Source of the DNA: Apostichopus japonicus
Lineage: Eukaryota; Echinodermata; Holothuroidea; Aspidochirotida; Stichopodidae
NCBI RefSeq assembly: GCF_037975245.1
Contig: NC_092561.1
Coordinates: 3,391,001 to 3,455,000 of the forward strand
DNA length: 64,000 nucleotides
Reading direction: 5' to 3'
A program made the translations under genes and the position numbers. The notes under the pieces are model-generated. The model was not told the origin of the DNA and did not search any database. It worked only from the letters and a program-made list of their open reading frames with translations. Positions 15,829 to 64,000 of the stretch are shown here, piece after piece. Position 1 is the stretch's first letter. Each line of letters begins with the position of its first letter.

Positions 15829-15916
<88 letters not shown>

Positions 15917-28084: not shown

Positions 28085-28099
28085 AAGCGGTAAAATGTT

Positions 28100-35620: not shown

Positions 35621-35623
35621 ATA

Positions 35624-36017: not shown

Positions 36018-37159
36018 ACATGTATATTCGTTATGGTTATGACTTATATGTCGGGTATTTACATGATCCCAGTACAGTCCATTAGCATTATAATCAATTT
36101 ATCCGTAGTAAATATATACAGAAAATGAACTAGTTTCCGTTTATTAATAACGCAATATTTGAGAAAAGTTTACGGAAAATCTTAAAACTGTTTTGAACAA
36201 TTTACTAAAAGTTTTGGAACGTGTAGCTTTTAATATAAACTAAAATAGGGAAAAATGAATTAAATATGCAAATTTGTTAGTTGTTTCATGTTTTAAAAAT
36301 GTGTTATTTACATGATCCCAGTACAGTGCATTAGCATAAAAATGAATATATCGGGAATTCATATATACAGAAAATGAAACAAATTTTACTTCGATTCAAG
36401 TTGAGGAACATTCGGACAATCGACAGGACAACAGACGGATAGATAAATAAAGTTCATATTTTGTTAAAAATGCTTTAATATTCATCCGCCGATTGAAAGT
36501 TTCTTGGATTTCTTGTACATAAAATGACTGCAATGGTCTCGGTTCGTGGTCAATAAGGGGGCCAGGAAAATATGGGATAAAGAATAAGGATTTGCGTAAC
36601 AGAATATACACGTGGAAATATGAAGACTTCAAAAAGCGCCCTGGAAGCCCGTAAACGTGATCTATACATGAACATTTTCTATGATTATGACTTATAAATG
36701 AAAATTTTAAATTAACTCTGAATATAAAATGATATCGAGAGACTCATAACTTGTAGTTATAAACTTACATCATCCCCTCCCTGTATGTTTCACTCGCAAA
36801 CCAGATAAATTATTGTTTGAGTATATTGTATGAATTAATTATCGTATTACTTGAAGCAATGTATCTGTGATCCGTCTCATTGTTGACATAGGTTAACTAT
36901 TTATAATGTAGTTAACAAAGTTTAGATATATCTTTTGTCATTCAGTGATTTTTCCTGTCGTGATAAATGTATCGAAATCGAAAAAAAAAAATCAAAAAAT
37001 TTAGCAGGTATCTTGAAAAGAATATTCGTACGCAAAGAAGGTACTGTGTTGTGCTGAAAGTTAACGGAATTTATAATGTTTTCTTGATATCATAAACCTC
37101 CACAATTTATCAAAACTGAAATTGTGTGAGCCGTACAATATATAATTTCCAGCTGTGTT

Positions 37160-37165
37160 TTTATT
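37160..37165 (-). terminator. Candidate polyadenylation signal for copy 2
   Basis: Minus-strand AATAAA about 100 bp after the stop codon at 37263. The matching place in copy 1 is no longer AATAAA. In AT-rich DNA this hexamer occurs often by chance. Confidence 0.35.
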
Positions 37166-37262
37166 AATAATATGTACACTTAATGGCTGAAGTAAATTAA
37201 TCGCGTTCCCATCTTTTGATATTATATTTTACAGCTATGACTTCGTTTCTACTATGTGTAAT

Positions 37263-40200: not shown

Positions 40201-42148
40201 TCTTCAATTTTCATAAATCGAGCGAATAGACCACGTGTACAACGTCCTGCCCGAACGGGAAACCGTAAACCAAACATACTGTTAAGGAGGGTAGATTTAC
40301 CACTACTCTGGACACCAACGACACTAATTACAAGAACCCTTGGGTCGTGTAAATGTTCTGTCATTTTGTCAAGAACCGCGGTAATCCACGTTATTGGTAC
40401 GAACCCAGTGTCACCATCCATCAATTCAAATGGATGCATCTGTAAAGCTAAACTCATAGCTATCGATGGAAACAAAGGTATATCAGCCGTTTCCTTTGAT
40501 AGGGCATGTTTGTCATAAATATCCATGTATGCCTCGTACAGTTGACCCATCTCTCTTAGAAAATGTTCACTTCCAAAATTTTCACATCTGACTTTCGAAT
40601 GAGATGCATCTATATTCTCACAGTTTGTAATTGCTTCTTGTACGTCTGACCTATTTACTTCTCCAGAGTCTTTGTTTTCTGCAGTAGAGATTAATCTCAT
40701 AGTTTTGGTTGTATCTTCACTCACTAATTCTTGTATCTTGTCATGAAGAAAACAAAATATGTACTGAGAACGAGCGAAGTTGTTTTCTGTGTCCTTTATA
40801 CCATTGTAAAATATTTTCATCGTCTGTGAAAAGTGATTTTGAAGTTGTGTTTCTCTTTTGTTTTTCTTTCCTGTATTATTCTTTTCTCTGTGTTTTTCAA
40901 AAGACCAATCTTCCCTAATGTTATCTGAATCAAATCGAGTTTTATCTAATTGGACCCACTCCTGCCATGATTCTTGTAACGGGAAACATTTCTTCTTGAA
41001 TTCTAGACAATCTTTGAACGGAATACTCTGGAATATATCTTTGATGAGCTTCCTTGCATTTTGGTTCTCATTTTTCTCGTCATCAAAATCTATATCGCTG
41101 TCTGTGGAAATTTTGGTCACATTTTCCAGTGAACCGCAAGATTTATCTCGCTGGTAGCATTCACTTACAAATTCACATAATTTATGTTCAAGGCAGTTTA
41201 TTTGAGTATCCCCCACAAGTATCGATTGACTATTTAACAGGGGTCTCATATCTGGGATATTCGTCTCCTTTCCAGTTACTTCGATAAACAGAGATTTGGT
41301 TGACGCGCTTTTAATATTTCTAACGTACTCTTCAGAATCTGCCTTGTTTACTTCTGAAACAAATGTTATGGTCAAGTCTGCTGTTTTGCAACAAAACTCT
41401 GTTTGGATCGGGAAAGCTCTACAATCTCCTCTTAAATTAAGAAATGTTGTTACATTCTTGATTGTTTCTTTATCTGTGCCCTTCCGAGGGAGAAACCAAA
41501 CGCTCTCAACAGTTCCTAGTGAATATTTTGGCTTCACTTTGTCACTTTCGCTATTTAAGAAAAAATGATGTAAATCATATCCTTGACACAAAGACAACAT
41601 GCGATTAAGTATTTGTGACTTAGAGATATACACATCGCCAATTCGCAAAATGGCCACAGTAAATGTTGGGTGAGTTATGATGGATTTTTCCAGGGAGAAT
41701 GGATCATCTTGTCCTTGCCATTTTTTGACGATTCTACGGCAAGCCCAACGAAGTATTTCAGGTTTCTTTTCTCTTACCCCTTGGAGGAGGAAAGGTACTG
41801 CTAACTGGCAGGCTGATAGTTTTTCTAAAATATCTTGTCTGAGAAAATCATCAGAACAATGGAGAAGACTAAAAATGAAATCGCGCATACTGATATTTTC
41901 TGGAAGAAGATTCTGAGATAAAACAATCCTGTGGTCTAGTGAAGTGATTTTCTGCCAGAATGTGTGCATTAAACTGGTGTTAGTACTACAATCACGTACA
42001 ATAAGAAACTCTTGCAGGGTAAGTTTGTTATAATGTTTACCAACTAAACCGATGCATTCTAGTAAATCTTCGAACGTTTTTGGTAGGTCGTCTTCCTCTT
42101 CATCATTTGAAGATTCTGGTTCACTTGGAAAATCATGGTCGCTGTCAT
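37263..42148 (-). CDS. Giant exon of copy 2: complete VLIG GTPase
   Basis: A 4886-bp exon with acceptor TATATAG and phase 1 entry (GAT Asp codon split). The N-terminal part (KLTLQEFL..., then FWQKI..LDHR) matches the start of VLIG proteins. The G-domain region is almost identical to copies 1 and 3. I see no canonical NKxD; the place after QRVSDLTAADRN may fill that role, as in other VLIGs (inference). The C-terminal third has the Cys/His cluster. Confidence 0.85.
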
Positions 42149-44176
42149 CTATATAGGCAATTAAAAAGAACGAAAAGTTATGAAACAATAATTTATATTC
42201 AAATCATGCAGACTTACATAGATATTGGCTAGGCCCAAATTCAGTTCAATTTTACGGATTTAGAGCTGTTATTTTTGGCAGAAGCGAAACCACTGGGGGA
42301 GGGGAGAAGAGGGGGTGTTGCAACTTGACTGTTGCTATTAATAAATACAAAACAGTCTACAGATCTCATTTTGGACCACTCGGATATGAGTTAGCTGCGT
42401 ACACCTATACCCACACGTAATATTAAGTAGTTGTAATTGTTTCATACCGTTAATATGTAAAAGGACGTTGCTACTAAGAGTATTGGGACTCGTGCTTACT
42501 CTACTCTCCCAAACTTCTGCCAAACTACTTACATTTTAAAACACACGCACGCAAATCCTTATTAAGAATATTGGTAAACTTACGAAAATGGTAGTACCAT
42601 TTCGCATGTTCGCCCTCTTCAGGATCTGTTGATGACCTCCCGTTACAAACCTCCACAGAACAGACGTCGGACAGCCACCCACGCCTATCCCAACTCGTAT
42701 CAGTCGTAATGTCATGCCATGTGTATTAGTGCAATCTTTAATTCCCTGACTTTTAGTTGAGAACAAACTTTGGCTTCCCCTTACACCACAAAAAAATAGC
42801 TACGCCCCTGCAGCTAAGTATCCGTAAAATTAAAATGTCTCGTAAACTGATACCGTAGTTCTCTTCAAATATTCAGTATATGAAAGGTTTATTTCTGACG
42901 GCATTTACTTTACGTTCTGTTCGTAGTTTTGTGTTACGGCTGAGAGTGATATCCAATCATTGAAACGTTTGGGATTCTATAAATGTATCGAGTTACCCTC
43001 CCAGCCCCCCCCCCCCCCCGGCCCCACCCGCATTACAATACCATATTGAACCATTACATGGGGTTTTATGGCTTTCGAAGGCATAGTTTAATGGTAATTG
43101 AGGCGGTTAATTTCTATGAGGAAAATTGCTTATTGTAGTCACTTTTGAAGTTAGTGATTCGAGGCAATTTGTCCGACAAAATGATAATGTACTGTTTTCG
43201 TTACCTTTCCCGTATGCAAAATTGCATAAAATGTTAGCTGCATCACGTTTGTGGACCTTCATCAGAGCAGCTTCCAGCCATGACAGATCATTCTCTGTAA
43301 ATAACCCGTTGTTTCCAATGTTTGCCAAGACTTGTGGTTGTACACCCGTGTTTTCAAACCTAAAGTTCTTATCCTCATCTTTTGCTATATCCACTAGTTT
43401 CTCCAGATCTTCTGTACTAAGTTCAGCTTCAACTTCAGTTAGCATATTCAAATATCGAGAATCTGTAAACATTAAAAATAAGAAAATGTTCTATCCATCA
43501 CCTAATAGCTCAAAAGAGAGATAAAATATGATTTATCAAATCCCGTTTTTTAATTTGTAATGTTTATATTCGATATATATATATATTAATTTGTTAGTAT
43601 GTTCACTGTAGAGTTCATAATTACTCAATTTTGGCAAGGTCCGGTAACTAAAAGCGACTGGTTGCGTATATGTAAAGTCTTTAATATCAGGGAAATATTC
43701 GTGATCTAAAAATTATGTTCTTAATGGTTGATAACTCGAGACTATTACTTTCAAAAGAAATATCGTCATTTAACCTGGTTGACTAAAAAAAATACCATGA
43801 GTAGTGGATTTAGCTATATAAATTTGTAAGCAGAAACCCATTTTCATAGAAAATTCTAGTAGTAAAATATCCAATAACGTTAGAAAGGCATGATAGAATA
43901 CGTTATAGTGTAGTTAGTAAAGCAAACTAACATCAACAAGCAGTGTGAAAAACAAGTGAAAGAAGATTCATGACATGTGTTGGTACGGGACCTTAATAAA
44001 GGAATAAAGAAAAGAAATAAAAACACATCAGTGATTGAAACCTTAGCGGTAAACCACAATGCAATATGTATACGATTATAAATATGTTTCAATAACATAC
44101 TGGTCTCTTCGTGAAACGTCTTTCGACGCTTCGCAGGTTGATTTCTACTCGGATCTTCTGCATCCATCAGTTCCAT
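37263..44176 (-). CDS. DED-VLIG giant GTPase, intact (copy 2), 1739 aa
   Basis: Three coding exons: 44101-44176, 43205-43462 and 37263-42148. Joins are phase 1 with canonical GT-AG sites, giving one frame of 1740 codons including the stop. Residues 1-25 are a basic leader, 27-111 a DED-like domain, 113 onward a VLIG/GVIN/URGCP-type large GTPase with an acidic N-terminal segment. The P-loop GVQSSGKS is at about 723-730, the switch-I-like GRCTRG follows, and DTEG is at about 776-779. A C-terminal Cys/His cluster (CPMCGMFC...SSHLHRPRGM) precedes an acidic Ser/Asp/Glu tail. Encoding the whole GTPase in one giant exon is a known trait of vertebrate VLIG-1. These are cytosolic or nuclear dynamin-superfamily-like GTPases, interferon-induced in vertebrates; the DED front end suggests cell-death or immune signalling (inference). 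Two ATGs lie in frame (44176 and 44167); the first has A at -3. Confidence 0.85.
43205..43462 (-). CDS. DED-like exon of copy 2
   Basis: A 258-bp phase 1-1 exon, same length as in copy 1. It keeps the SRYLNMLTEVEAEL start and the LFTENDLSWLEAALMKVHKRD end that mark the DED fold. Several substitutions from copy 1 fall in the middle (DEDKNFRFENTGVQ). Confidence 0.7.
44101..44176 (-). CDS. Leader coding exon of copy 2
   Basis: Encodes 25 residues (MELMDAEDPS ... KRRKTFHEET), donor GTATGT. It has three more codons than copy 1, by a 9-bp in-frame difference at the start. Confidence 0.65.
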
Positions 44177-45360
44177 CTTCCCTTCACGGATTGTGTAGAT
44201 TATTCAAGTGTAGCGTCAACTGCAGAGGAAAGATTGTTTCACGTTAGGACATGCTATTACACTGCCAAACCCGACTATCAACACTACATAGTGTTTGTAC
44301 CTATGAACGCACTGAGTGCCAAAATAATCATTAACATTTCTAACATTGTCAAATATGAATTTATTCGTAGACATTTTGTTAAAGACATAAACGAGCATTA
44401 AACTATACCAAACTGACATAGATTAAACAGTGAGAGTTGGAAGAGAATGTGGTCACCAATTCATTTATTTAACAGTTACTTATGTAGATTGTGAGTAAAC
44501 TAGATTACATGTTCAATATTTCTTTTAATCGACTATTAATTTACATTTTACGTAAAGGCGTTATGACGAACTGGCCAAGTGACAAATCAATCATTGCACA
44601 ACTTTTTGTTTACAGTTGTAAGTCTGTTGATGTACAACTAAAACAACTGAAAGTAATGAGGTCGCATCATTCAGTGGTGCTAGCTAACATTGGGAACAAA
44701 CCAACATACCAATATTTGTTACTCTTTTCCAATGGGACGTTACTAATACGCACTGTTTAGTAGTTAAACGTCATACCCCGCAAAGTAGTTCTTCGTTGCA
44801 CAGTAGTACAAAAACAAAATGGCGATCTGAGGTCTCATAAAAGGAGATCAAAGTGCAATCTTTCTCTTTGTCCCGAAGTTTAATTACGACAACGCAATTT
44901 TAAGTCTTTCAAAGGCTTCCAGGTTTGGTTTTCTATGTTGCGATATATCCGTAACCTGAGTCCACATTTACCGAAACTTCTACATATTAATGGATCTTTT
45001 CTCGGTTTGATTACAAGCCATAACTTCCTTACAGTAATATCAACGGATAACTTTCAAATGATCGAAAGATATTAAAACTAAACACGGTACTTCCAGAAAA
45101 GAAGTCCAGCTAAACTCACCACGATATTATTAGACCTATGCGATAGAAAGTGATATTTCTTCCGTCGGATTTGGTAAGCAATACCTTATAATACCACCAT
45201 TGGTTCGATAGTCATCAAGCATGCTGACTCAGAACCACCGTATTGCAAGGGATATTCAACAGTCCATGATGTAACCTACTTATGTGTGAGCAGTTATACA
45301 TGTGTAAGCTGTTTGTAATACGTGAGTAGAATGTAGCTTGAATTTATCGTTCAAACTTCA
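44177..45360. other. 5' flank of copy 2
   Basis: Conserved with the copy 1 flank. It probably contains the promoter and any 5' UTR exon, but no element can be placed with confidence. Frames here of 60-96 codons have no recognisable content. Confidence 0.4.
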
Positions 45361-45479
45361 TATTTACCCAGCGAAATTTCGCGAGTTCAAAACGCAAGAG
45401 TAAGCATATACATAGACAGTGTCCATCAAACTTTATTTGTCACATTGCAACGAACCAGCTACTAAATAATTTAATGGAT

Positions 45480-45960
45480 GAAAAAGTCTGTAAAAATGGG
45501 TCTACTAACGTCTAAATTGTACTTGATGCGTTATAGCCATCTCTACTATACATTGAATTTATTTTTGCCTGCGTGATGAAAGCTGCAGCACTGATCATTC
45601 TTACTAGGCTGACAATTAAAGGCAGCGAATCCTATTCAAAATGGTATGCTTTGTTTTTAAAACTCTACATGGCAATGCGCCGACCCACACGTGGGTGAAC
45701 TGTTGACTTGACGCTATTGTGGGCACATTCTTCGCTCGTAAGCCCCGTCACTGCACTAACCATGTGTAAATCAGAGGTTTATCATGATAGGGCTTTTGAT
45801 ATTTGTGCACCACGTCTATGGAACGCCCTGCCGGTACTTTTTGTTTCACTACCGTCAGATTGTTGTAAGTCACAAATTAAAACTCATCTTTTACCACGTA
45901 ATTTAATGACTGATCTAGCTTTTGGTCTTTAACTTTTTATATTAATTTCAATAATTTTAT
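45480..45960 (+). mobile_element. LINE 3'-end RT remnant, uninterrupted (unit B)
   Basis: The plus strand keeps the CR1/L2-like order: LPIKGSES near 45610, KTLHGNAPTH near 45655-45690, then ..DRAFDICAPRLWNALP near 45795-45835 and a C-terminal KSQIKTHLL segment. A stop and frame changes mark it as dead. The 45.8-kb part is the empty site for the foldback element of unit A. Confidence 0.8.
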
Positions 45961-45999
45961 TGATTGAAATTTTTTTCCTTTCTTGACTTTGATTACTTT

Positions 46000-47250
46000 A
46001 CTCTAATGTATCTTACATTTTTTAAATAAATAAATGTTTATTATTAGTTATTGTTATTATTGTTAATTATAACTGTTTATAACTGTTTTTGGTTGGCGTT
46101 ACAATCAAATTACTTTTTTACTTGGTTGGCTCATTGTCATAGAAACCTTCCCGTTTCTTTCATCAGAGTTTATCAAGTTCCTTTATTTCGTGTATTGTAG
46201 CACGTTGTCAGACAAGTTAGGAATTCTCCACAGATTTAAGTAAAAGTATTCGTAATTTCGATGACGGCACCGGCAATCTCACTTTGGGATTGCATAAGGA
46301 TGCTACCTTGTCACCACGGGTTTCTCACTGTAAAGTATTGCCATTAGAACACGAAGACATATCTCCGTTTACAATTTGTTTTGGAGAGCTAAATTAATGT
46401 TATCCTATTTGGATAGGCTAAAGTATAATGGTCACACCATGAAATACAACTGGTATTGGTCCACGAACAGAAGCAACAACAGTATTATGAGAAGGCAGCT
46501 TGAAATGATTGAAAAATCAGTTTTTAGATCATATAAATACATTTTGAAAAAATAAACAGCATGTTAAAAATTCTGAGAGCCTATCGGTATTTGACCAGCA
46601 CTAATGACAACGTGTGACGTCACTGGTCATTTGCTGTTTTCGAAAATGTAATAAATATTACTTCATAACGGTTATCCTTGGTAAAATTGTATCATAGAAA
46701 CTGATCAATGAGTCTTAAAAAGGATATACTTTAATTGTCAAACATGAGTGATGCTTTATGTTGGAAATGTAAGAATATTGTGAAATGTTTAGTTCGTTGC
46801 CTCGCTTGGGAACCAATAAATGCTTGTTGAGGCCGTAATTATTTCAAAATCTTTACTATGGCTTTTTTAGATTATTTCGCAATTCGTATCGTAATGATCG
46901 ATTTTCAGGCAACAGCTTTCCATTAGAGAGCTCAGAAGGCATTGAAGATGGTAACAAGCAAATGTAATACTTTTCAAACTTTAACATTCATTTTATGAAA
47001 TAGTAGCAAGTACCTGTCCATTCATTTTCATTTAAAACATAACTTTATTTCTGTCACTTTTGAAGTAAACAACATAACAATGCATAGAAAATAGTAATTT
47101 TACAGAGAAAGAGACTGAGATGTGCCCACAAGAAGCTTGGAGAAGCTTATAAACGTGAACACCCCTTTATAAAATAAAAATGTGACGAAATATGAAACAA
47201 CAAAACGAGAGAGAGAGAGAGGGTGAAAAAAGGGGATCACAACTATTTAA
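46000..47250. other. Unit B intergenic stretch, no gene seen
   Basis: Aligns with 26.9-28.0 kb of unit A. AT-rich with no domain or RNA gene recognised. It has the single-copy counterpart of the 118-bp duplication at about 47133 and a short (GA)n run near 47210. Confidence 0.5.
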
Positions 47251-47279
47251 GATGAAAAAGGCTAAAACAGAACCAAGAA

Positions 47280-47960
47280 ACTGTTAGTCACAGATGGTTG
47301 GTAATAAGATTATGCCTCAACTCCCTTTAATAGTAATAATTGAGAGACATTAATTGAGAGACATTTAATAACATTATCGGGGAGTGAATCCCAGAGTTTA
47401 GAAGCTTGGGCACGAACACTGTGTTGTAAGGAAGTGAGTCTAAACGTGGAATCGATATACAATTACATGTATACGGGTAGGATACGAATGCGTGTCATTA
47501 CATACATTACAGAAACTATTAACATGGAAAAGAAGAGTAGCTAGTATCATTTTAAATAAAAACACCGGTATGGTAACGATTTATATCACAAACTGAAAGG
47601 GTGTTCATATGAACGAAAAAAAAAACATAGTTGGATGATGAATATATTCTTTACTGAAAACAGAACGAAATGGCCTTTTTGGAGGATAAAGATTTAAGAA
47701 GCATATGTACTGCCCTAAATAATACTAAAATTGGATATGCAAGGTAGAATAAGAGTGTTGTAACGAAAAAATAAGGATATTCCCAGGTAGCAGGTAAATA
47801 AGGCGATTTTTAATTCCGATACCATTTTAATGGAGATATACCGGATGTGATCTTTCCAAGAGAGATGTGTGTCAATATAAACTTCATGGAACTTGTTAGA
47901 CATTTGTAGTTTATCCACCCTACGAAACGTATAATATCTTTTTCATGATACTGTATTGAT
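47280..47960 (-). mobile_element. LINE RT C-terminal remnant (unit B, minus strand)
   Basis: Counterpart of 28100-28760. The minus strand shows F.EVYIDTHLSWKDHIRYISIK, a common motif after the RT thumb in LINEs, then ..YNTLILPCIS. Further on are R-rich C-terminal pieces. Frames are broken. Confidence 0.75.
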
Positions 47961-49049
47961 GCTAAATTAATGTATTTAACAATTTTATCATACCATCACC
48001 TTAAGCCGATAATTATTGGTTAATGTTAAAAAGGTTTGAGGTCGTATAAATACGTCATTACACAGACAATAGTTTTAATTAACTGATTTTAAATGATTAA
48101 TTTATTGTCCATAACTAGCAAATGTTAACATATTGACACAGATTATACACACATATATCAATTGTCAAATTATGTTGTTAAGACAAATTTGTCTCAAGAA
48201 GTTTAACAGTATAAACATTTGAATGTAACTCACAGAGAATTGAACCCTCATAGGCATAGCTGATTCAAAAATATTCCAAATTTGGAATCTTTACTTCAAT
48301 AGTAGCAGGTAAAACCTAGCATAGCTTAAAATGAAAGGCGAAAGTGAACAAAGGATAGCTTCAAAATATCAAAATATAAACTTCTTTTAATATTCCTTAT
48401 ATTCCTTATTTGACATACCTGATAAAGACTAACAAAAGTTAGTACTTCCTATTAAATTCTGCCAAACATTTTAAACCGTGTTTAGAAAAGGCCACGTAGA
48501 CATATTGTACAACAACGTGTGCTTCAGTTTCATTGTAAGTCGTATGCAAGTATTTCCCCAACTTTACAGTTATCTTTCTAACTCCGGTCATATGAACGTA
48601 TCTGTAGGTAACCGCATATCATAATTACACCTACTCAAAGGTCCATTAATAACGAGATTTCATTTTTTATACTTTTAATCCAGTTTGGTACCGATATACA
48701 ATAGTTCACACTTAGTTTACAATAGAAAGTGCCACCCATACTCAAATTTTAACTAGCATTTTATTACCACATTAAAAGTAATTAACCACATTGAAATATT
48801 TAGCGGTCTATTTTACTCAGAGGCTGTGAATTATTTCAAGGATCAGAGCTTCTATAGAAAATTATTTTAGAAAAATTCTACCGATCTTTTACGTGTAAAC
48901 ATTTCGGGCGAATACTGAAGGTCTTTAGGAGTGCCTGATAATGGAACAAATTGAAAAACGCACGCCAGAAGATGTGTTACTCTACGTAATAATGGCTCTA
49001 CATTATAATGATTGTAAAGATCGTGCGTTCATCAACTCCCAACATATGG
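47961..49049. other. End of unit B and downstream flank of the multi-domain gene
   Basis: No gene. Similarity to unit A (28.8-29.66 kb) fades near 48820. A minus-strand AATAAA at 48760-48765 lies about 285 bp past the stop at 49050 and could serve as that gene's polyadenylation signal, in which case its 3' UTR crosses the duplication edge. Confidence 0.4.
48760..48765 (-). terminator. Candidate polyadenylation signal for the multi-domain gene
   Basis: Minus-strand AATAAA about 285 bp downstream of the stop codon. Weak evidence, since AT-rich sequence makes chance hits common. Confidence 0.3.
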
Positions 49050-52000
49050 TTAATTAAATGAAGCTCCTCCATGAAATGTTGACCGTCCTTTTGTCTTCAG
49101 ATTTTTGTCTTGCTCTAAGCTATCAAGCGCTTCTTGCTCGCTTATGTGAAACCAACTTTGAGGTATATCAGCAGGTTTGCAGTCAAAAGTGAGCGCGATC
49201 CAGTCGTTTTGAGTAGCAAATAGCCATTGCCAAAAGCGCTTACCGAAGTCACCGTTCGTCGGGCGAATGTCCCAATTTGGGAAACGCCGTTTGTACATTG
49301 CGCAAGGAAGTGTTTCATTGCCGACTGTAAATGTGGCATTTCGTAGGAGTAATGAAGAATTACAATCCTCCAATACAAGTTTCGATGTCTCTGAATAAGC
49401 TTCCCCTTTCATTCCCCTGGGGCGATGAAGGAAGGAAGAATGAACCGAGTGGCTCTCCATGATGTTATCGCATGGGCTCCCACACATAGGGCACACCTCA
49501 TCACACAGATTCGATAAGCCAGTTTCGGTCTTAAAAGAAGAGAAGCTGTACTGAAAATCATCATACACCCCTACTTCGTTAAACTTTTTTCTAAAGTACT
49601 TTCCTAAGCATTTCTTCAAAATGGTAGAAACTAATGAAAATTCTGCTCCAACATAAATAGACTCGATTTCTTTTACAAATGGTCCAAGTTCGTCAAAACA
49701 ATTCTGCAATTCGTTGACCCACTCTTGAAACGTTGTCTCTGAAGATACTCGTTGGTCGACAATTTTTATCTTTCGTAATCGAGTGTCTGATATTTCCTTT
49801 TGCCTGGTACGGATATCTTTGTCTATCCTCTTGCAGCATTTCTCCCACTCTCGTTGTAAGTAATTCTCAGCCTGCTGCTTCATAGAATGTCGATACCAAT
49901 CATCAGCATACAGGAAATGGTACAAGCTATCCACGCGTGATGACCACTCCTGATCACGTACCACCGACTGCTTCAGTAAATCCCAAGGTAGTTGCAGCCT
50001 TCTGGTGTAATTAGCATACTGAATATTATTCAGCACATACTTCTTCAAGTGTTCAATTTCCATATCTATGTCTTTTCTTAGATAGTAGAAGATGTAATCT
50101 GCAGCACGGTTGTTTATATTAGTTTGACCATAGAAATCAATGAAGTGATCCTGTATCATATAGTATTCTTCACTGAATATTTCACTCAATTCATCTTCGT
50201 TTTCCTTACTGTCCCTATAAACCTCTTCAAACGCTCGTCCGCATAAATGCAAAAGTGCTTTTGCGATGAGAAGATGAGGAAGCTTAAATCTGTCACGTTG
50301 AGACGATAATTCCATTAGAGTTTTCCGAACCACCAACTGAAATATATTTGTGTCAAAATATTTACCCCTCTGATTTTGAAGTTCACTTATTTGAAGGTCG
50401 ATTACTTGCTTTACGTATGTACTGGCCTGTTCTGTTTCATTTCGAATGATGCCATCTTCTCCTTCCTCATCTTTGTGAACGGCTCCATGTTGCTCGCTCA
50501 TACGTTTATGCCGGATCCACGCCTTTACATATTTTACGTGAATGTACTTAGCAAATTCAGGTAGTTCAACATGCTTCTCTATTCCCCCTTCTTGGGATAT
50601 TAGGTTTTGAATTTCATTTCCAACTGCCATATCCCTGGTCATCCGTAGAAGTAACTTTTCGGACAATGATTTCAAAGAGGATGTTGTTTTTTGTTGCCGA
50701 GTTAAACTGCCTTCTTGCATGAGATTGCCAATCCAAAATCTCCAATTGTCTTTAAAATGCTGTTCTAAAGCGTCTTTATCTTTACCCTGATCACCTGTAG
50801 CTTGTAGCATTTTAGTGGCCGTAAATTTAGCTTCCATTAACATCTTTGGAAGATACTTCCTTTGAAGGCTTGGTAAGTTAAATCTTAGTTTTCTGATCTC
50901 GTATTCTTCTGAAAGTCTCATAACCGCTCGGTTTTTTGCATCTTTTAGTCCAATCGATATATCGTCGCGGAAGCCCTGGTTGTGTTTCATCATGATATTC
51001 TTACGAGGATGGTTTTCAATGTATTCCCGTACCTTCCGGTTTAAAGTTTGTCTTTCATTTTCTACTTCTTCGCTTAAGGAATCTTTCAAAGAATCGATAT
51101 CAGGAGCTACACCGATTCCAAAACTCGATTCAACTTCTGTTATGCAAGTTTTTGATTTTACCATTACTGCATTCCTCATGTCAACCACCCACCCGTTGTA
51201 TTCAAGGCAAAATTTGTTATAGTCAACCGCCCTAACACTATCTTGAAAGTTGAAAACGAAATCCTCTTCCTTAAGTGCTTTCCAAACATCTCGTACGCGC
51301 TCCGTGAATGTTGTCATTGTTAATTCAGGTGTTATGATCTTATTTTGGATATCCTGGAAGAGCCCGTTCTTTATTTTGATCACCTTTTCGCTATACATGT
51401 GATTTGGTGGCGACATTCCTCCCTTCCAAAGACAGGGTATATACTGCAAGTCCTCATCTAGCTTCAGTTCTACAACATCTGAGAATTTCTCATACCTCCC
51501 CTCTAATCCTTCCGCTTCCGCAGCAATTTTCGTAGCCGCGTCGAGGGTTTGTTTGATTCTAAAGGTACTCACTTTATTTCTGTCTGCAGCGGTCAAATCA
51601 GCTACGCGCTGTTGAACTATTTTGCATTTGCATACTAAATCAACTTCCTTCATCCGCATCAGAGCATGTGCTGCTATTTGGAGTATGCCTGTCATATCAC
51701 TGTCAATGTTTTCTCCTTCTATATTGAAAATTGTTACGTTAGCAATACTAAAAGCAAACGTGACAAGTTCATTATCGAATCTTCGATCGTCATGATCAAT
51801 GGATCGTATGCCCTCAGTATCGACAACGATCAAGTAACTGAACCCAAGCGTTTCCGCTAATTTTTCTTCAATTGGGAGAAATCTTATGAAAAGACCCCTC
51901 GTGCATCGTCCTGCTCGAACTGGGAAACGCAGACCAAACATACTATTGAGAAGTGTAGACTTACCACTGCTCTGAACACCAACCACACTTACTACCAAAA

Positions 52001-53872
52001 CCTTCGGATCATTTAGTTTGAGACTCAATTGATCTAAAACAGCAGTGACCCATGTAAGAGGCACACGGCCAGTGTCGCCGTCCATTAGTTCTAACGAATG
52101 CATCTCCATTACCAAACTAGCGGCAATTGATGGGAACAAAGCAATATTTTTTGATTGGTGTTTCTTCTCAGAAAGCTCTTCATATGCTTCGAATAATTGC
52201 CCAATTTCTCTCATGAAGTGTTCAAATCCAAGATTGTTATCTCGACACTTTTTCAACAGCAACTTACGTTCTTGCCTCATATTTTCACACGTTCGAACAG
52301 AGCGACCCTTTTCACCGTCTTTGTCAACCACATCATCAACAGACACAGCTGAAGATTCTTCCTTTAGGCTTTCTTTTTGGCTTAATTCTTCTTCAAGTTT
52401 TAGAATGGTTTTCATGCCATCTAATATCGTGTCACTTACTGTTTGGTATATTTTGTCATTTAGGAAGCCAAGGAAATATTGCAAATAATCATGATTATTC
52501 TTTTCTCTCTCGATTGTACTGTGATACAGCTTCATAGTGTTTGAAAGCTGAGCTTCCAGCTGAATTTTCCTTTGCTTTGTTTTGGCCTGTATTATTTTTT
52601 CTCGTTGCAGTTCGAAAGACTCATCATCATCGTTTTCTGATTCAAAATGGGCTTTATCCAGCTCAACCCATTCCCGCCAAGATTCTTGCAACGGAAAACT
52701 CTTTTGTTTAAATTCTAAGACATCCTTGTATTCAACACTTCCAAAGATGTCCTTAACAAAGGTGTGAGCCTTATTACATTCTTTTTTGTCCTCGTCGACA
52801 TCTAAGTACGTTCTGCATTTCTCTGCTATTTGCTCAATACTCAACAGAGTTTCATTTTGTCTATTTCTATTGCATGAATCCGCTATGATTTCGCAAACCA
52901 TTCGGCTGATGGTGTCGACCTGAATAGTTTTGACAAAAATCCAGTTATCCTTTTTCGTAGGTAGAGAAGATCTTTCTGATCCATTTGTATTCCTTTTATC
53001 TTTGACTGCAATAAATAGCGTCTTGGAAGAAATCTTTTTCAATTCTCTGATTGTGTTGACGTATTCGCTACGCTTTTCTGTCGCAATTATTGCAATGGTT
53101 AAATTGGCAGACATGCAAGCAAACTTACGTTGTACAGGATAATCCCTACAATCACCACGTAGGTTGAAAAAAGTAGTGACATTCTTAAATATTTCTCCGT
53201 CGTTACCTACCATTGGAAGGAACCAAGCACTTTCGATCGATCCATGCGAAAAACGTGGATCTAACTTGTCATTATCTTTATTTAAAAAGAATGGATGTAA
53301 CCCATAGCCTTGGCTATAACCTAGCATATAGTTTAGTAATTTCGATTTTGACATCCGTACATTACCGATTCTCAAAACTGATACAGTGTAGGTTGGATAT
53401 GCTACAATTGGTTGTTCAACAGCAAATGCATCTCCCTCACCTTTCCATTTTTTAACTATTCTTCGGCATGCCCAAAGTAATAGTTGGGGATTTTTGTCTT
53501 TGACACCTCCGAGAACTAGAGGTACTGCCAACTGGCAAGCTGATAGCTTTTCTATAATATCTTGTTTGAGAAACTCGTCCGCGCAGTGAAAAATGCAAAA
53601 AATAAAGTCACGCATAGAAATATCACTCGGTACAAGATGTTGGGGTAACACAGCTCGATAATCTAAAGAAGTAATTTTTTGCCAAAAAGATGTAACATAG
53701 TCTATAGAGGTATGACCATTTCTTACTTTGAGGAAATCTTCCAAAGTCAGTTTACCAGCATTTAAATTACTTATTCCTATCTTATGAAGAAAATCGTCAA
53801 AAGGATCGTTCGTATCTGTTCTTTCGTTTCCTACATTCGATGATGTCCCGGGATAAATGCCACCTTTTTCGG
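49050..53872 (-). CDS. Exon 12: VLIG-type GTPase
   Basis: A 4823-bp exon, acceptor TATTTCTTCCAG. It starts EKGGIYPG and DPFDDFLHKIGI, then KLTLEDFL, the usual VLIG opening. G1 is GVQSSGKS (51957-51980), switch-I-like GRCTRG, G3 DTEG (51810-51821). A Cys/His cluster CPMCGSPC starts near residue 2399, with HRPRGM after it. It lacks the acidic tail of copies 1/2 and ends GASFN. It is more diverged from them than they are from each other, but the GTPase core is nearly identical. Confidence 0.9.
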
Positions 53873-56800
53873 CTGGAAGAAATAGAAATATTTGTGATGT
53901 GTCAAGTGAAATTAGTTAACTCACCGGTCAAAAGCCACATTATCTTGCTTTCTTATGGCGTAATGACTCATTTCATTATATTATTTATTTGTATTTCCAT
54001 AATAATTTAAACATGTGGTCTTTCACGATTGAAATAATGCATGGAAAAATATTACTTTCTGTGAAAAATTGTCTAGAGATTCCCCTAAAACTTTTTCTTG
54101 CAAAGTTATGTTTTGCAATATTTTAAATATAAATTATGATGTTCTCGTTTGATAATTTCCAAGTCTTTGTTTAAGGTTGATTGGTTAAGTTCAATACAAT
54201 TGAATTCAAAGAGGAGGTGTAAACAATTTGAGAAATGTGAATCACTTCGAATTACCTAACTCTTCGACTTCTTTTGTAGTCTTCAATCGTTTATGTGTTG
54301 ATAGGGATGCAACCATTTGTTCATCTTCAACAAACCTTTTGGGAGGAGCTCGTACAATGTTCCAGTTCCTACAAAGAATGATACAAAGTTGTACACCACC
54401 GTTTGTAAGTAAGATACTCACCAGTTACTAACATGTTTTGGAACGGGCGACAAACTGATTTGCATTATATTTAGATGAACAAATGGATTAGTGGGTAAAC
54501 CATCTGATTACAGTTAATATGCAGTGTGTTGTCCATGAAATATAACATTACAACAATAAAATGTTTGACAAAGTATTTCGAACAAATAAAAAATATATAT
54601 ATTTAGCTTTCTCATAATGCATTAATTATGATGATAAATACAGCAATAAGAATTATACGAATTAATGGTTTAAATGTACCCAAGACCAGTTATCAGAACT
54701 TTCAAGGCACAGGAAATAGCACAAATCAATCCAATGTAAACACAAAAATTGACGATAGAAGTAATAATAGATGTTTTTTTTAAATCCACAGTAATCAAGT
54801 AAATTTTGACTTTATTCTTAGAAGTATTGATACCTGGTGCAGGCCGAATGTAAGGTATTTATGCCATTAACATGTTGTTACACTTACAGAGATGATTCTC
54901 ACATTCAATTTTGCTTGCCCTCTTTTAATAGAAAAAAAGTCGGATACAGAAAGGGAAAAAAATCTATGCTAAATTTGAATGTGATGTTAAACTTACCCAC
55001 TACTTTCTAAGAAAATATCAAAATCCACTTCTTCGGTTGAACATTGTTGACTAATTTCATCTGTTTTACCAGACACCTGACTCCCTTCAGTCATATCCTC
55101 TGTAACGCCACTTAAAAGGTAACCTTCAAATGACAAGAGGAATACATTACAGATGAAGAGCGTTCAATTCTATGACATAGCGGCTGTATTTTTCAGTGTT
55201 TGGATTGAATAGTTAAGTAGTAAGACTCTTATGGTGATAAAAGCAGTAACATCTCATTCTAAATACCAACACAGTGCAGTCAATTGGATATTCGCAGCTT
55301 CTTTTAAAACTTAAAATCACCTGATTGACTCCATTTTACTTCAGAATTCAACGCCTTTGCTAGTTCTTCGTAGTAAAAACACCCTTCCAACGCAAGAAGG
55401 AACGAATTGAATGCGGTCTCCTCTTTGGTTTCGAGAAATGAAATGAATAAACGGACACGTTGCTTTCGTTTTGCAGTGGCTTTCAGTGCATCTACTTCAG
55501 TACTAGTTAATGTACCATTGCTAGTGAGAATCTCTATGAGACTGAAGGGATCAAAATCTTCTTCCATGAGTGATTGTACTCTCATCAGAGCTCGTTTCCA
55601 TTGATCTTTTATGGTGAAAACTGTGAAATATTGGTGTTAAGAGAGAAAACAGAACAAATTAGTGAAATATTACTGTTATCAAGTTAGCTTCATCCGCTAT
55701 GTTAGCGGAAATAATCGTGATTCACGACATACAGATCGTTGTTGAACTACTTCAGTTCTTCATGTTTTAAAGTAGTTTATTCCATTTCTATGTAACGGGC
55801 ATGCATTTTGGGCAAAATTAGCAGAAAAGCAAAGTGGAAGGTGAAGCAGACGTTGAATAATGGTATGTGTCAACTTTTGTCAAATAATATCTTATAATAC
55901 ACCTCTATGCCCCATAACAGCTAAGAACAACTTCTTTCAGAAGTTATTATCGTCATGATGGTCCTTCAGACAGAAGATCGAAGACCTCCAAGAGCCCGAT
56001 ATGACGCCATTTAGAAACTTTCCTTATACCGTAGCAACGTTGTGTGATACTATAAACTCCTAAGCCATATTTAATGTTGCCAGATTCATACTCACTGGGC
56101 TGTTTTAAGACATTGCTAGCATCCGTCACCTCTTTGGTGTCGTAAGACAGTTTTATTGACAATTTTCCATCTTCGAGTATCGTTATTGTTTCTTTTTGTG
56201 TCCTCTCGTTATACATTGTCATGAGTTTTTTCAAGAGTCTTCCACTGTGGATGTCTCCGATCAGTTGATCCAGGGAATCTTTAGATGGTACTTTCAATCG
56301 AAATACAATGCTTCCCTTTTCGCAATCAACAAGATGTACTTTAAATTCTCTTCGAAACTCGGTATCCAGCCGCTTTTTACTTGATAAAAGGAACTCCTCA
56401 AACTCTGCCATGGCACCACTTGGTACGTTTGACTTCATCGTCAATGTCACCTCTGTCACAGAAAAAGAAGTCGTGGTTGTATAAAATTTTGATACCAATA
56501 ATAATGTTATTAGAATGTTATCTAAAGAAAATAAAACCTGAACAAAACAATAAATACACTTAGTGTCACATTTCATTCATTGGCTTGATAAAATCTTTTC
56601 TTGTTAATCTTTCAGAGTTGTATCGCAATTGCAAGAAATACGTAATTGGAACGATTTAAATTAGACGTAGATTAGAATGATCAATGATATCTAGCAGCTT
56701 GCTTATTTTTCCCAAAATCTTGGACAATTTCACCTCGATTGACTATCGTTATTATTCAATTTTCCGCAGAATTGTAATATGTTAAATATTTACCTGGACA

Positions 56801-59800
56801 AAGAGACATATCATTGAAATCTTCAATGATGCCTTGCAGCCGTGTAAGCTGAGTAGATCTAACAGCCTCCAGGAGGTGTAATGTATCCCCACTTGTCCAA
56901 ATCTTCTTACGTCGGCACACATGCATAAACTCCCGTTTAGGATTGATACTTCCTTGAATTCTTTCCAAGGATTTGTGATCCATATTGAAGTATTTACACA
57001 GTAGGTCAATATCTGAGACATCCATGGATTCGATTAGTCTATCCATCATGTCTAGATAGTCGAATGCATGTTGTCTCGATTTCTCTTCGTTGGCTCCTGA
57101 AGTTTAATATACGAAAACATAGAAATTGTTTGGTAGAAATATTGCTATTGTAATTTGTAGAGCTCTCATTCTGAGATTAGTAAGTAACACATGACTGTGT
57201 ATATGTAGGGCTTTGTATCCAGGACCACTGGTTATAGGAGTAAACCTAATTACCTATATCACATCCAACAAGACTTGAGCATGATGCGGCTCTACGTGTC
57301 TTAGTTTCCGTCACCTAAAAATTGTTTATAAAAACGGTTGTATATAATTTGACACTGAAATTTTGGCCAATAAATATGACAAAAAGGTTAGTATAGTTTA
57401 TCTTTTTACCCCAAGTTGTTAATTAAAAAGTACTCACCATGTTGTAAGAGTTCTTTAAACTGTTTCTCTTCGTATATAAGCTCAATTGATTTTCGTTCCC
57501 TTAGTGAACCTATCAAGTCATTATCGCCCGTCTCGTCTTTATAAATTGTCAATATATCTTGCAGAAATCTTCCACTGTCAATATTTGTCTTGAGTTTATC
57601 CAGCGATTCTGCTGTAGGCACTTTGAATAGCAACTTCATACCAAACTCTTCCTCTTCTACAGATTTCGAATCTCTTCTTTTCCCCATCAAGAATTTTTTG
57701 AGTTTGGTAAATGTTGGGTGATTTGGTTTCGTTGGATTTATTTGCACTGTTACTTCTGTTAAAAGTAATAAAATAAATAATAAAAACAAGATAAATACAT
57801 GAAGTTCGTTATTTTTATGTTACCTGAAACTTGATTAATAAATAAGCCAACATATTTTAATACAATGGGATAAAAGGCAAATAGTATGGAGCTATAATGA
57901 ACCACAAGGCAGGTCAGGGAGAACACTTTGAACAAATATGCACTCTAACAACACAGTTACTTGAATCCTTTTTGAACGTATTTGGTTAACATTCTGTACT
58001 CGAACAAGTATCATAAATGTCTATTTCGTTAATTGACACATTTATGACAATTTTTTTTTGGCAATCGTTGACCTTGGACGCAAGCCAGCCATCATCATAA
58101 ATTGATGCAATGAATTATGTGGACATCATAGGTGTTAATTATTTCTTGATAATTGGAGTAGATTGTACAAGAATATGCAAAACTGTTCATTGAAAGCCAT
58201 GTGCAATTCATGCCACTAGTTGTCAAGAAGAATGTCGTCAATTCTAGTATACATGATTTGTCACTGCCAGTAACAAAAAGGAACCATATGAAGCATTACA
58301 CTAACCTGGCCATAGAGACATATCATTGTGTCTTGCAGATATGATGTTCTCCAGGTTTGTAAGCTTATTCGACCTAACAGCGTCCACCAGTCTTGACCTG
58401 TCCTTGCTTGTCCAAATTTTATTTTGTCGACACACGTGTATGAACTTTCGTTTAGGATTGCTACTTCCACGAATTTTTGCCATAGAGTTGGAATCAATTT
58501 TGAAGTAATCACACAATAGTTCAATGTCTGATATATTAATGGCCTGGATGAGCCTATCCATCGTGTCTAGGTAATCAAAAGTAGATTGTTCTTCATTGTA
58601 ACCTGAACATAAACGTAAGATGGAGGTAAATGTTATAAAAAAAAAACATTCAATAACAAAATATCAAACTAAATGGTATAGTAGGTCTCTGATATACGGT
58701 TTATTCATGCAGTATTGCATTATTTGGGCCTGCAAAACAAGTAAGTATTTGCTTCGGAAATTTCTTTTTACCTTTTAAGGGTTTGTCTAAAATGCTTCTG
58801 GCTTAAAAGTACTTTTTACCAAGGTAGACAGCTTGATGAATTTGTTTCCGAAAGCCTTCATTATACAAATAATGAATGATCATGAGTGCAATAGTGCAAA
58901 TATTTCACAAGTTGAAAGATGTAATTTGTTCCATTCAACGAGGCGCATATTTGCACTATTGCACGAATGGAAACATTTCATTTTTTGTTTTATACAACAT
59001 ATTATATAAAGATGGGTAAAATGCACTCATGCAACAGATTTTTTTGAACAGGCATGTTTCACTGCTCTGTTACCATTGAAAAAAAGTGCTACCAAAAAAG
59101 TATAACCCGTGGTTCTATTACATAGAGTGGAATTGAGCGGATTTTGCATGCAATCAACGAGCAATTGACCAATCAAATGACCAGAATACAATTAGGTGTT
59201 GTATAATAGCTACTAAACCTCCCTTGTGCGACATCAATGGCATTAAAAATACCCAGACCTACCTGCTTCAAAACTGGCAAGACTTGAGCATGATGATAAT
59301 GACGACGTTTCACCTGACAAGGAACAAAAAAACATCACATTAGTTAAGTTCATTCATTAGAACCCTTCTGTACCCTTTATATAAGCAGACGCCAATACAA
59401 CAAATTTAGAAAAAAAAAAAACTTTGGATTAAAGATGTGTTACAAAATCGTCTTACCTACTGAAGTTGACAGCTGTTTTCTGATATTTTCAAGTTTTGAC
59501 TTGATAAAGTCTAGTCGAATGTGTGGTGTGGATCTGGAACCGTTGATCGGCTTGTATAGGCGCTTTGCCACATTTCTTCCAAACACATCACTTTCATTAT
59601 CTTCTAGTAACTTGTCAAGGGCTCGCTTGGAAGTAATTCTCAGGGAGAGGGACTTGGCTTCATCGCAAAGTTTCACGAAGTGTATATCATACTCCCCACG
59701 AAAGAAAACGTATAGCTGTATACTTGCTTCCTTTGGAAATAGTGAACTCTCCCACAATGTGCCGCTCTCCAGCAACGAAACCTTTTTATGTGATCCTGAA

Positions 59801-61612
59801 GCTGGAAGCTTCACCAAAAAGTTACCTTGTAATTCTGGTGATTAAAATGACATATAGAGTTTCGTGACTGATTTGAGTATAGAATCGTTTTTGGAAACTC
59901 TTATAGTTGAATGCAAGCTCAATTGATTTTCTGTATGAGCTCTGATTTATTTTTATACTATCATAGAAACTTTCACCACGCTATTAAGGATACACAAACC
60001 CAGTCATGATTGTTTAGCTTATGTGACATAAATCTTCCTATTTCAAACAGCTAGGAAACTTTTGCTACGTCGGGACATATCTTTGTCTACAAGTCGTGCC
60101 TAGGAATGTCGCCTTTGCAAAGCTGTGTTTTTATAGTGACACCATGATGTTGCTGTATCTTTTCTTTTCTTGTTTTCATATTTGGAAGGTATAACGTTAA
60201 CGTGCTGACAATAAAACAAATAACGATAGATGGAAGAATTAAGAGGCAAACACCTGTGATATATCCCAAATGGATTAATACGTTTCAAAGCTATTCGGGC
60301 TGTTGTTTATGAAACTAACTTTATCCAATGATTGTTGCGTTTGTGTCTTCGACGTAATATTAATATTTTCAATTATTCACCCCGTCTGATCAATTAACAT
60401 CGTTGTCCTTTCTAACACATGAAGCATCGGTTAACTACGTTGATAAACAAGTGTTATACATTAAACTAGATTTGATATAAGCAGTATACATATTTTACTC
60501 TAAAAATTTCCAAGTATATCAATACAGTTGTATCAAATAGTTGAAAACCACATATTTGAGATCAACTTTGATTTCATACAAGGAATTCTTTTTAATTGAA
60601 GGTTAGCATAGAATGGGTGTTCGAAAAGTATTTATGCAACAGTTTTTTTGCATCATTGTATATGTCTTCCGATGAGCGAGAATATACCAAGGTCTAGGAT
60701 ATGTGATACAATTGAACATATGACAGATCCCAAATGTATGCTCTGTGGTTATTCTAGTTCAGTTTCAAAGCGGCCTTTTGTCTGGTGATATTTCTTACCT
60801 GGAAAGGACAGTATCATGTCATGCTTGGCGTTGATATCTTGAAGATATTTTAACTTGTATTTATTGCATGCCTCCTTTAAGCGGAGAATTGGTATTTTAT
60901 TACACAACAGAAATTTAACCAATGTTTTTCCAAGATCATTGCTGTTGGTATTTGGTACTTGAAAGTATTCAAGTAACTTCCTTGCGTCAGACTCTTGTAT
61001 TGCTGTAGCAATATGTAATAAGTGGGAGAGACAAAGAAACGATTCGTCTGGGACACTGTATAATTCTGTAAAATATGGGAATGAATAAAAGAGAAGGCGT
61101 TCAATGATAACATAGTTTATCGTAATTGTTAATTTAGCACACGCGTGAGTAGTAGGCAGAGAGAAGATAAGAATAATCATAACGGCTTATTACTCTTGGC
61201 ATACAATATGCAAATAAACATTGCTCATATGAATATACTATTGATAAAAGTAGATATCAGGACATTAATGTAACCTCATATTTTCGAAGATATTACCTTG
61301 TAAATCTTCAATTTCCTTGATGACCCGTTTCGTTTCCTTTCTTAGCTTTTCTCCAAGTGTTCTATACCAGGCAGAGACTTCCAGTACTTCAGCAAATCTC
61401 AAAAGCCACCTATCATCATAATGTTTGCATTGTAGAGCAGACCTAGTAATCATTACTCTTTCCTCCCGAGACTTTCTTGCTTTTATCTGATTCTCGTCTT
61501 CTTCATCGACGATATTCTTCTGAACCAGTGCAGCTAAAACATGTATTGGCTCAAACTCTTCTAATAGTTCTTTCATCATTCCGTCCAATACTTTTGTTTG
61601 AACGTACTCCAT
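49050..61612 (-). CDS. CARD-(DED-TRADD-N-like)x3-CARD-VLIG GTPase, 2549 aa (12 coding exons)
   Basis: Exons, 5' to 3': 61297-61612, 60799-61065, 59457-59834, 59263-59313, 58306-58602, 57438-57755, 56794-57096, 56096-56452, 55321-55620, 54997-55123, 54256-54368, 49050-53872. They total 7650 bp, one uninterrupted frame. Every join has GT-AG and matching phase. Domains in order: CARD about 8-95; DED-like 110-190; TRADD-N-like 215-310; linker 322-337; DED-like 345-430; TRADD-N-like 438-540; DED-like 550-640; TRADD-N-like 645-760; CARD 766-860; linker 864-942; VLIG 944-2549, P-loop at 1574-1581, DTEG at 1627-1630. The ATG at 61612 has A at -3 and G at +4 and follows GTGCAG, so a 5' UTR exon probably lies upstream. 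Likely a cytosolic immune or death-signalling GTPase scaffold (inference). Separate adjacent genes are the main alternative, but phase continuity argues against it. Confidence 0.8.
54256..54368 (-). CDS. Exon 11: basic linker
   Basis: A 113-bp exon, enters phase 2 and exits phase 1 (acceptor TTCTTTGTAG, donor GTAATT). It encodes NWNIVRAPPKRFVEDEQ and a KRLKTTKEVEEL helix. No domain recognised. Confidence 0.7.
54997..55123 (-). CDS. Exon 10: acidic linker
   Basis: A 127-bp exon, enters phase 1 and exits phase 2 (donor GTAAGT). It encodes YLLSGVTEDMTEGSQ followed by an acidic Ser/Glu stretch and FDIFLESS. It is followed by exon 11, which corrects the phase; the pair must be included or skipped together. 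Confidence 0.7.
55321..55620 (-). CDS. Exon 9: second CARD
   Basis: A 300-bp phase 1-1 exon (acceptor TTTCACAG, donor GTGATT). It has DQWKRALMRVQSLMEED, SLIEILTSNGTLTSTEVDAL, KRKQRVRLFISFLE and AFNSFLLALEGCFYYEELAK. It fits the CARD pattern closely (hydrophobic repeat, L-T-x-x-E-x-x-x-L turn, F...L......L). Confidence 0.75.
56096..56452 (-). CDS. Exon 8: TRADD-N-like domain 3
   Basis: A 357-bp phase 1-1 exon (acceptor TTTCTGTGACAG, donor GTGAGT). It has strand EVTLTM, helix AEFEEFLLSSKKRL, EFKVHLVDCEKGSIVFRLKV, then PSKDSLDQLIGDIHSGRLLK, and strand KLSIKLSYDTKE. It aligns throughout with exon 6. The pattern of a variable strand pair, G-S-I-V-x-R-L-x-V and a G-R-L-L helix is what suggests TRADD-N. 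Confidence 0.6.
56794..57096 (-). CDS. Exon 7: DED-like domain 3
   Basis: A 303-bp phase 1-1 exon (acceptor AAACTTCAG, donor GTAAAT). It has DYLDMMDRLIESMDVSDID, LLCKYFNMDHKSLERIQG, HVCRRKKIWTSGDTLHLLE, AVRSTQLTRLQGII and the DMSLCPG end. Closest relative is exon 5; the pair arose by internal duplication with the preceding TRADD-N-like exon. Confidence 0.65.
57254..57314 (-). pseudogene. Ghost linker exon in the intron between exons 6 and 7
   Basis: On the minus strand a 61-bp piece has acceptor TTTTTAG and donor GTAATT. It contains the words ATCATGCTCAAGTCTTG shared with exon 4. Its length is not a multiple of three, and entering in phase 1 gives a TAA at once. It looks like a duplicate of the linker exon that has lost its frame. 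Including it would end translation, so it is probably always skipped. Confidence 0.55.
57438..57755 (-). CDS. Exon 6: TRADD-N-like domain 2
   Basis: A 318-bp phase 1-1 exon (acceptor TTTTAACAG, donor GTGAGT). It has an opening strand EVTVQI, helix FTKLKKFLM, and strand MKLLFKVPTAESLDKL. Then comes SGRFLQDILTIY and a closing strand SIELIYEEKQF. This strand-helix-strand-helix-helix-strand layout with a GR/GxL-L.....Y signature is like the N-terminal domain of TRADD. That is a pattern match, not a search result. Confidence 0.55.
58306..58602 (-). CDS. Exon 5: DED-like domain 2
   Basis: A 297-bp phase 1-1 exon (acceptor TATGTTCAG, donor GTTAGT). It has DYLDTMDRLIQAINISDIE, LLCDYFKID, RKFIHVCRQNKIWTSKD and AVRSNKLTNLENII, ending HNDMSLWPG. 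It is clearly a paralogue of exon 7. The pattern fits a six-helix DED or a related death-fold domain. Confidence 0.65.
58861..59206. mobile_element. 346-bp MITE inside the intron between exons 4 and 5
   Basis: Same family as 35624-36017: ends TTATACAA and TTGTATAA, internal GTGCAATAGTGCAAATATTTC and GAGCAATTGACCAATCAAATG. It is shorter because part of the internal inverted repeat is missing. It lies wholly in the intron and does not touch the splice sites at 58602 and 59263. Confidence 0.85.
59263..59313 (-). CDS. Exon 4: 17-residue Ser-rich linker micro-exon
   Basis: A 51-bp exon, acceptor TTGTTCCTTGTCAG and donor GTAGGT, phase 1-1. It encodes ETSSLSSCSSLASFEA. Its length is a multiple of three, so it can be skipped without changing the frame. 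A related but frame-breaking exon-like piece sits in the next DED/TRADD-N-like intron at 57254-57314. Confidence 0.6.
59457..59834 (-). CDS. Exon 3: TRADD-N-like domain 1
   Basis: A 378-bp phase 1-1 exon. The core (SLSLRITSKRALDKLLEDNE..., then a K-R-L-Y helix, then a hydrophobic strand and K-L-E-N-I-R helix) matches the strand-helix-helix-strand order of the other two TRADD-N-like exons, but it is more diverged. Its donor GTAAGA leads to a tiny linker exon. Confidence 0.5.
60799..61065 (-). CDS. Exon 2: DED-like domain 1
   Basis: A 267-bp phase 1-1 exon (acceptor ATTTTACAG, donor GTAAGA). It is the most diverged of three related modules. It has ..DARKLLEYFQVPN early, a ..KFLLCNKIPILRLKEACNKY centre and ends DMILSFPG, matching the DM.L.PG ends of the other two. 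A death-fold relative; DED is the best guess. Confidence 0.6.
61297..61612 (-). CDS. Exon 1: N-terminal CARD
   Basis: Encodes 105 residues plus one base, donor GTAATA. The helix pattern LLEEFEPIHVLAALVQKNIV, then DEEDENQIKARKSREER, then ..ALQCKHYDDRWLLRFAEVL fits a CARD. The hydrophobic-rich first helices are followed by the acidic E-x-x-x-I stretch and a terminal W..L..F...L helix. CARDs recruit CARD adaptors or caspases by homotypic contacts. Confidence 0.7.

Positions 61613-62342: not shown

Positions 62343-64000
<1,658 letters not shown>

Follow-up and report, generated by a model that had tools for sequence, protein, structure and literature searches.

The minus strand of the window (the whole 64,000-nucleotide stretch of Apostichopus japonicus DNA analyzed here) carries, between positions 61612 and 49050, a single gene of 12 coding exons that join into 7650 bp and encode 2549 amino acids, as determined by script and by direct reading (Table 1). 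The joined frame contains a single stop codon, at its very end, and all 11 introns have GT-AG boundaries with phases that agree throughout. An earlier note on this DNA, made from the letters alone, was exact in both its exon count and the length of its stop-free frame, and the splice sites and matching phases that it described were borne out at every intron. The locus is one intact VLIG/GVIN-class giant GTPase gene whose N-terminal half is a death-signaling adaptor array, in the order CARD, three DED-like/TRADD-N-like pairs, and CARD, followed by the VLIG portion.

Table 1. Exons and domains of the VLIG gene, in window coordinates (aa, residues of the gene product).
Feature	Position	Strand	Evidence
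Exon 1: start codon and CARD-like domain 1 (aa 1-105)	61297..61612	-	Pfam CARD 5e-4, 20.5 bits, cut-off 23.9
Exon 2: DED-like domain 1 (aa 106-194)	60799..61065	-	Held-out DED profile; Pfam none
Exon 3: TRADD-N-like domain 1 (aa 195-320)	59457..59834	-	Held-out TRADD-N-like profile; Pfam none
Exon 4: Ser-rich linker, 17 aa	59263..59313	-	94% identity to P0001
Exon 5: DED-like domain 2 (aa 338-436)	58306..58602	-	58% identity to exon 7; all-helical P0005 model
Exon 6: TRADD-N-like domain 2 (aa 437-542)	57438..57755	-	29% identity to exon 8 (7e-7); held-out profile
Exon 7: DED-like domain 3 (aa 543-643)	56794..57096	-	
Exon 8: TRADD-N-like domain 3 (aa 644-762)	56096..56452	-	
Exon 9: CARD 2 (aa 763-862)	55321..55620	-	Pfam CARD 9.3e-8, 32.4 bits, cut-off 23.9
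Exon 10: linker (aa 863-904)	54997..55123	-	98% identity to P0001
Exon 11: linker (aa 905-942)	54256..54368	-	Identity 100% to P0001, 89% to P0005
Exon 12, 4823 bp: VLIG body and stop codon (aa 943-2549)	49050..53872	-	Single open frame; 97.6% identity to P0001
URGCP domain (aa 1028-1318), in exon 12	52746..53618	-	Pfam PF25496 1.7e-60
URGCP/VLIG-type GTPase domain (aa 1469-1769), in exon 12	51393..52295	-	Pfam PF25683 1.8e-87; GBP 3.2e-8

Exon 1, within which the start codon lies, exits in phase 1, while exons 2-9, including the 51-bp exon 4 that was placed with the help of an A. japonicus protein, both enter and exit in phase 1, indicating that each of exons 2-9 is a self-contained, shuffle-ready unit. 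The start codon sits 3 bases past a good splice acceptor at 61615, which suggests that a 5' non-coding exon may exist; none was found upstream of exon 1. The start codon is preceded, at a distance of approximately 0.7 kb, by a 225-bp AT dinucleotide repeat (62345-62569).

In the GTPase half, the URGCP and URGCP_GTPase domains occur in that order with matches far over the Pfam cut-offs, and exon 12 contains an additional, weaker GBP match. Both the P-loop (GVQSSGKST, residue 1574) and a GBP-like DTEG motif (residue 1627) are intact. A body coded by one very large exon is a trait of the VLIG/GVIN class, and exon 12 shows the same arrangement here. In the accessible part of a published transcript study, a Gvin1-like transcript that is not assignable to a particular gene was down in A. 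japonicus coelomocytes upon Vibrio challenge, with a log2 fold change of -2.67 (PMC4519954).

The earlier note had proposed two CARDs, three DED-like and three TRADD-N-like domains ahead of a VLIG GTPase. Pfam upheld URGCP, URGCP_GTPase, and the exon 9 CARD, whereas exon 1 and the DED and TRADD-N assignments stayed under its cut-offs. Exon 1, which scored 20.1 bits against Pfam CARD when the search was repeated, is hence termed "CARD-like"; in the whole of P0005, an A. japonicus predicted protein described below, Pfam identified two CARD stretches. A profile built from the CARDs of exons 1 and 9 weakly matched the solved structures of RAIDD (0.0066) and Apaf-1 (0.04). No meaningful Pfam match was obtained for exons 2, 3, 5, 6, and 7: exons 2, 5, and 7 did not match Pfam DED, and exons 3 and 6 did not match TRADD-like_N, so that we use "DED-like" and "TRADD-N-like" for them. 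Exon 8 matched TRADD-like_N at 0.0031 (17.7 bits, under the cut-off of 23.7).

These exons were also scored against profiles built without the exon under study, with 1000 shuffled sequences as control. Exon 1 reached 14.3 bits against the held-out CARD profile, exon 2 reached 10.5 bits against the DED profile (best shuffle 8.3), and exons 3 and 6 reached 14.9 and 50.6 bits, respectively, against the TRADD-N-like profile, with 0/1000 shuffles scoring as high in each case; window exons of the other types scored no more than 2 bits with any of these four profiles. The DED profile of the modules also found the DED of P0023 (13.3 bits, 0/1000 shuffles), a domain that the DED model of Pfam detects as well (2.8e-6, or 7e-7 with the piece alone), albeit under its own cut-off. 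Two links are weak: exon 7 scored only 6.9 bits with a profile of the other DEDs, and for the DED of a neighboring VLIG copy (copy 2, below) 1/1000 shuffles scored higher. TRADD-N is the likeliest, if not a decisive, assignment for exons 3, 6, and 8.

In the structural model of P0005, exon 5 is all-helical, with pLDDT blocks of 47-78. One of the three DED-like domains, as modeled there, forms a six-helix death fold nearest to solved DEDs, with the PEA-15 DED among its matches, and the other two were called by sequence likeness to it. The RxDL charge motif is a DED trait, and none was clear in a by-eye alignment of the three DED-like domains. Structural matches of the modeled domain also include cFLIP/caspase-8 DED assemblies and MC159. 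Together with the presence of three DED-like domains per chain and the lack of any Pfam match to a protease domain, these would fit a regulated sink or inhibitor, in which the DED/CARD array holds adaptors and blocks their assembly in the manner of FLIP-type tandem DED proteins, while the GTPase sets their release. We consider this unlikely, since CARD and TRADD-N parts are, to our knowledge, absent from known FLIPs. Furthermore, the nearest CARD-GTPase precedent, zebrafish Gbp4, activates, according to the accessible part of its description (PMC4932187).

The front 925 residues (without exon 4) were compared with 5.8 billion proteins at E <= 0.001, and 2 proteins were returned from 7002 candidates, both A. 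japonicus VLIGs. The predicted protein P0001 has the same length as our gene product, 2549 amino acids, and aligns with 94.6% identity and no insertion or deletion once exon 4 is included. P0005, a predicted protein of 1092 amino acids from a second search, corresponds to residues 1-1077 at 89.8% identity; its front half is the same and its sequence ends inside URGCP. It is encoded on a contig of 462 kb, far smaller than the 21.65-Mb contig of P0001. Both share the domain order of the gene, but their records do not describe the front array: P0001 is named after its GTPase, while P0005 is called "hypothetical protein" or "CARD domain-containing". These two annotations support one gene rather than two, as the earlier note had held. 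Because this support consists of predicted sequences, two adjoining genes could in principle have been misjoined; with phase-matched splices running through linker exons 10 and 11 (98-100% identical to P0001) and both annotations spanning the boundary, we regard a misjoin as extremely unlikely.

Identity to P0001 varies widely along the gene, being 76, 85, 87, and 76% in exons 1, 2, 3, and 6, 94-95% in exons 4, 5, and 7 (95% in exon 5, 94% in exon 7), and 97-100% in exons 8-12. Between P0001 and P0005, both from A. japonicus, the difference amounts to 22% for exon 1, 15% for exon 2, 16% for exon 3, 5% for exon 6, and 11% for exon 11. This uneven exon-by-exon change is mosaic, and selection, conversion, or paralogy may lie behind it. 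It could also be read as the trace of an arms race if the front exons were an integrated bait, that is, if they mimicked host adaptors attacked by pathogens and damage to them fired the GTPase; the faster change of exons 1-3 and 6 and the divergence of exons 1-3 between P0001 and P0005 would both fit. We judge such a bait quite unlikely, given that exon 6 differs little between P0001 and P0005 and that paralogy or mosaic alleles could produce the same pattern in what are protein sequences only.

Within the VLIG family, the GTPase survey comprised the best 120 of 245 matches, and N-termini longer than 60 residues ahead of URGCP were tested with iterated profiles in 120 proteins (122 examined). 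Among these 120 N-termini, 27 matched the DED-like, 6 the CARD, and 6 the TRADD-N-like profile, with overlap between the sets, and 90 matched none of the three, a figure that is an upper bound on "none" owing to the sea cucumber seeds of the profiles. A species name is attached to 22 of the 27 DED-like VLIGs, in every case A. japonicus or Holothuria leucospilota; since the seeds are sea cucumber sequences, absence in other groups says little. The 90 N-termini could be taken to favor an ordinary VLIG whose front domains merely localize or stabilize the protein and play no part in signaling. This seems very improbable to us, as the full domain order is common to the gene and the A. japonicus annotations and a simpler form is present in a second genus.

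That simpler form is H. leucospilota P0042 (1762 aa), in which CARD (45.7 bits), DED (17.7 bits), and TRADD-N-like (18.4 bits) matches, each with 0/1000 shuffles as high, precede the VLIG portion. P0042 shares the CARD-DED-TRADD-N-URGCP-GTPase order with the gene but has one DED-TRADD-N unit and one CARD instead of three and two, and its identity to the gene is 16-20% over the DED-TRADD-N unit and 24% over the first 142 residues. Like the gene, the A. japonicus VLIGs P0002, P0003, and P0004 have DED-TRADD-N fused to VLIG; unlike it, each has a single unit, and no CARD match was found in them. In an unrooted tree of 13 sequences, module 1 clusters with P0042 at a support of 0.960, and modules 2 and 3 form a sister pair at 0.971. 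We infer a simpler CARD-DED-TRADD-N-VLIG ancestor, which would later have gained module copies and a second CARD, with the array probably growing through shuffling and tandem duplication of its phase 1-1 exons.

Other VLIGs listed in the survey carry further domains. P0048 has a Death domain in its Pfam column, confirmed by Pfam search; P0015 lists PF07686, which we take to be an Ig-type domain, and P0080 lists PF02494; and seven fish VLIGs (P0019, P0046, P0054, P0060, P0067, P0116, and P0118) list PF04548, presumably AIG1. By their sequence annotation, this suggests that VLIGs have been fused to varied partner domains.

Downstream of the gene, its strand carries two more VLIG copies. Copy 2 (37263-44200, running from about 44.2 to 37.3 kb) has a start exon, a DED exon at 43.5 kb, and a body in a 1646-aa frame, and is apparently intact. 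Copy 1 (17493-24458, from about 24.4 to 17.5 kb) comprises DED, URGCP, and GTPase parts with an in-frame stop at approximately 18.72 kb and frame changes at approximately 20.0 and 21.0 kb, reflecting either a pseudogene or assembly errors. The DED exons of both copies are 90-93% identical to those of A. japonicus P0006, P0007, P0008, and P0012, which are encoded on a contig as long as that of P0001 (21.65 Mb). Both copies are contained in a tandem segmental duplication of approximately 19 kb (11419-29654 and 30119-48807), whose larger blocks are 77-92% identical and whose halves each include a 38-bp tandem repeat (14079-14471 and 32878-33392). Just downstream of the gene, at 47640-48000, a fragment resembling by eye the terminal part of a reverse transcriptase (FHEVYIDTHLSWKDHI) was noted, which Pfam did not support. 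A repeat of 78% identity is present at 35623-36017, in the stretch that lies downstream from copy 2, and at 58860-59206, in the intron between exons 4 and 5, and is perhaps a mobile element.

Parts of this architecture have precedents. In the DEDD2 clade of marine invertebrates, of which echinoderms have 18-23 copies, DED-TRADD-N constant parts are fused to variable parts that include GBP and AIG GTPases (Kaur et al. 2021, PMC8195603). Our gene may share the DED/TRADD-N pairing of these constant parts, with three pairs of DED-like and TRADD-N-like domains ahead of its GTPase; the term "VLIG" has 0 occurrences in the accessible text of that paper, nor is the CARD-bracketed triplication met there (PMC8195603). 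Zebrafish Gbp4 resembles the gene in joining an interferon-type large GTPase and a CARD in one chain, and the inflammasome role is Gbp4's own: inflammasome activation depends on its GTPase activity, and loss of the CARD keeps it out of the Asc speck (PMC4932187). Gbp4 is, however, a GBP and not a VLIG, with a single C-terminal CARD and no DED or TRADD-N mentioned in the accessible text (PMC4932187). The resemblance would be a likeness of design only. Human GVIN1, a coat-forming giant GTPase of the same VLIG class, coats bacteria and has been modeled as dimerizing via its large GTPase domains; it has one N-terminal domain on a flexible linker, and the accessible text does not describe an adaptor array (PMC11974893).

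The earlier note knew of no characterized protein with the full order. This holds insofar as the literature searched, mainly in open text, yielded no paper on a CARD/DED/TRADD-N VLIG, but an annotated predicted protein has the same order, and other sea cucumber VLIGs have simpler forms. The novelty lies in a VLIG that combines triplicated units with two CARDs; fusions of DED-TRADD-N with GBP GTPases were already published in 2021.

With somewhat better than even confidence, we propose that the GTPase half clusters the front array to seed CARD/DED assemblies. Upon infection or damage, the GTPase half would bind GTP, dimerize, and polymerize on a target, a mode of action proposed for human GVIN1 and GBPs. 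Polymerization would gather many front arrays, whose CARDs and DEDs could seed assemblies with the corresponding domains of adaptors and caspases while TRADD-N recruits a further partner, and inflammation-like or cell-death signaling would then issue from the coated target. Beyond the domain assignments these steps are inference, drawn by analogy with GVIN1 and Gbp4, from which it follows that GTP-driven clustering should cluster the adaptors as well. A bolder form of the proposal, which we hold tentatively and at less than even confidence, is that every subunit carries a complete platform of two CARDs and three DED-TRADD-N pairs, such that coating and the launch of death or inflammation would be one event, the array being an exchangeable phase 1-1 cassette diversified by selection.

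Mammalian GBP coats recruit separate caspases. If the proposed mechanism is true, the coating and alarm halves would, unlike in those coats, be fused in one chain. This natural fusion, in which a VLIG shares one chain with CARD, DED-like, and TRADD-N-like domains, links the class to death-fold signaling and provides a directly testable protein. The locus also shows the addition and multiplication of exon-sized adaptor modules in an invertebrate immune-type family.
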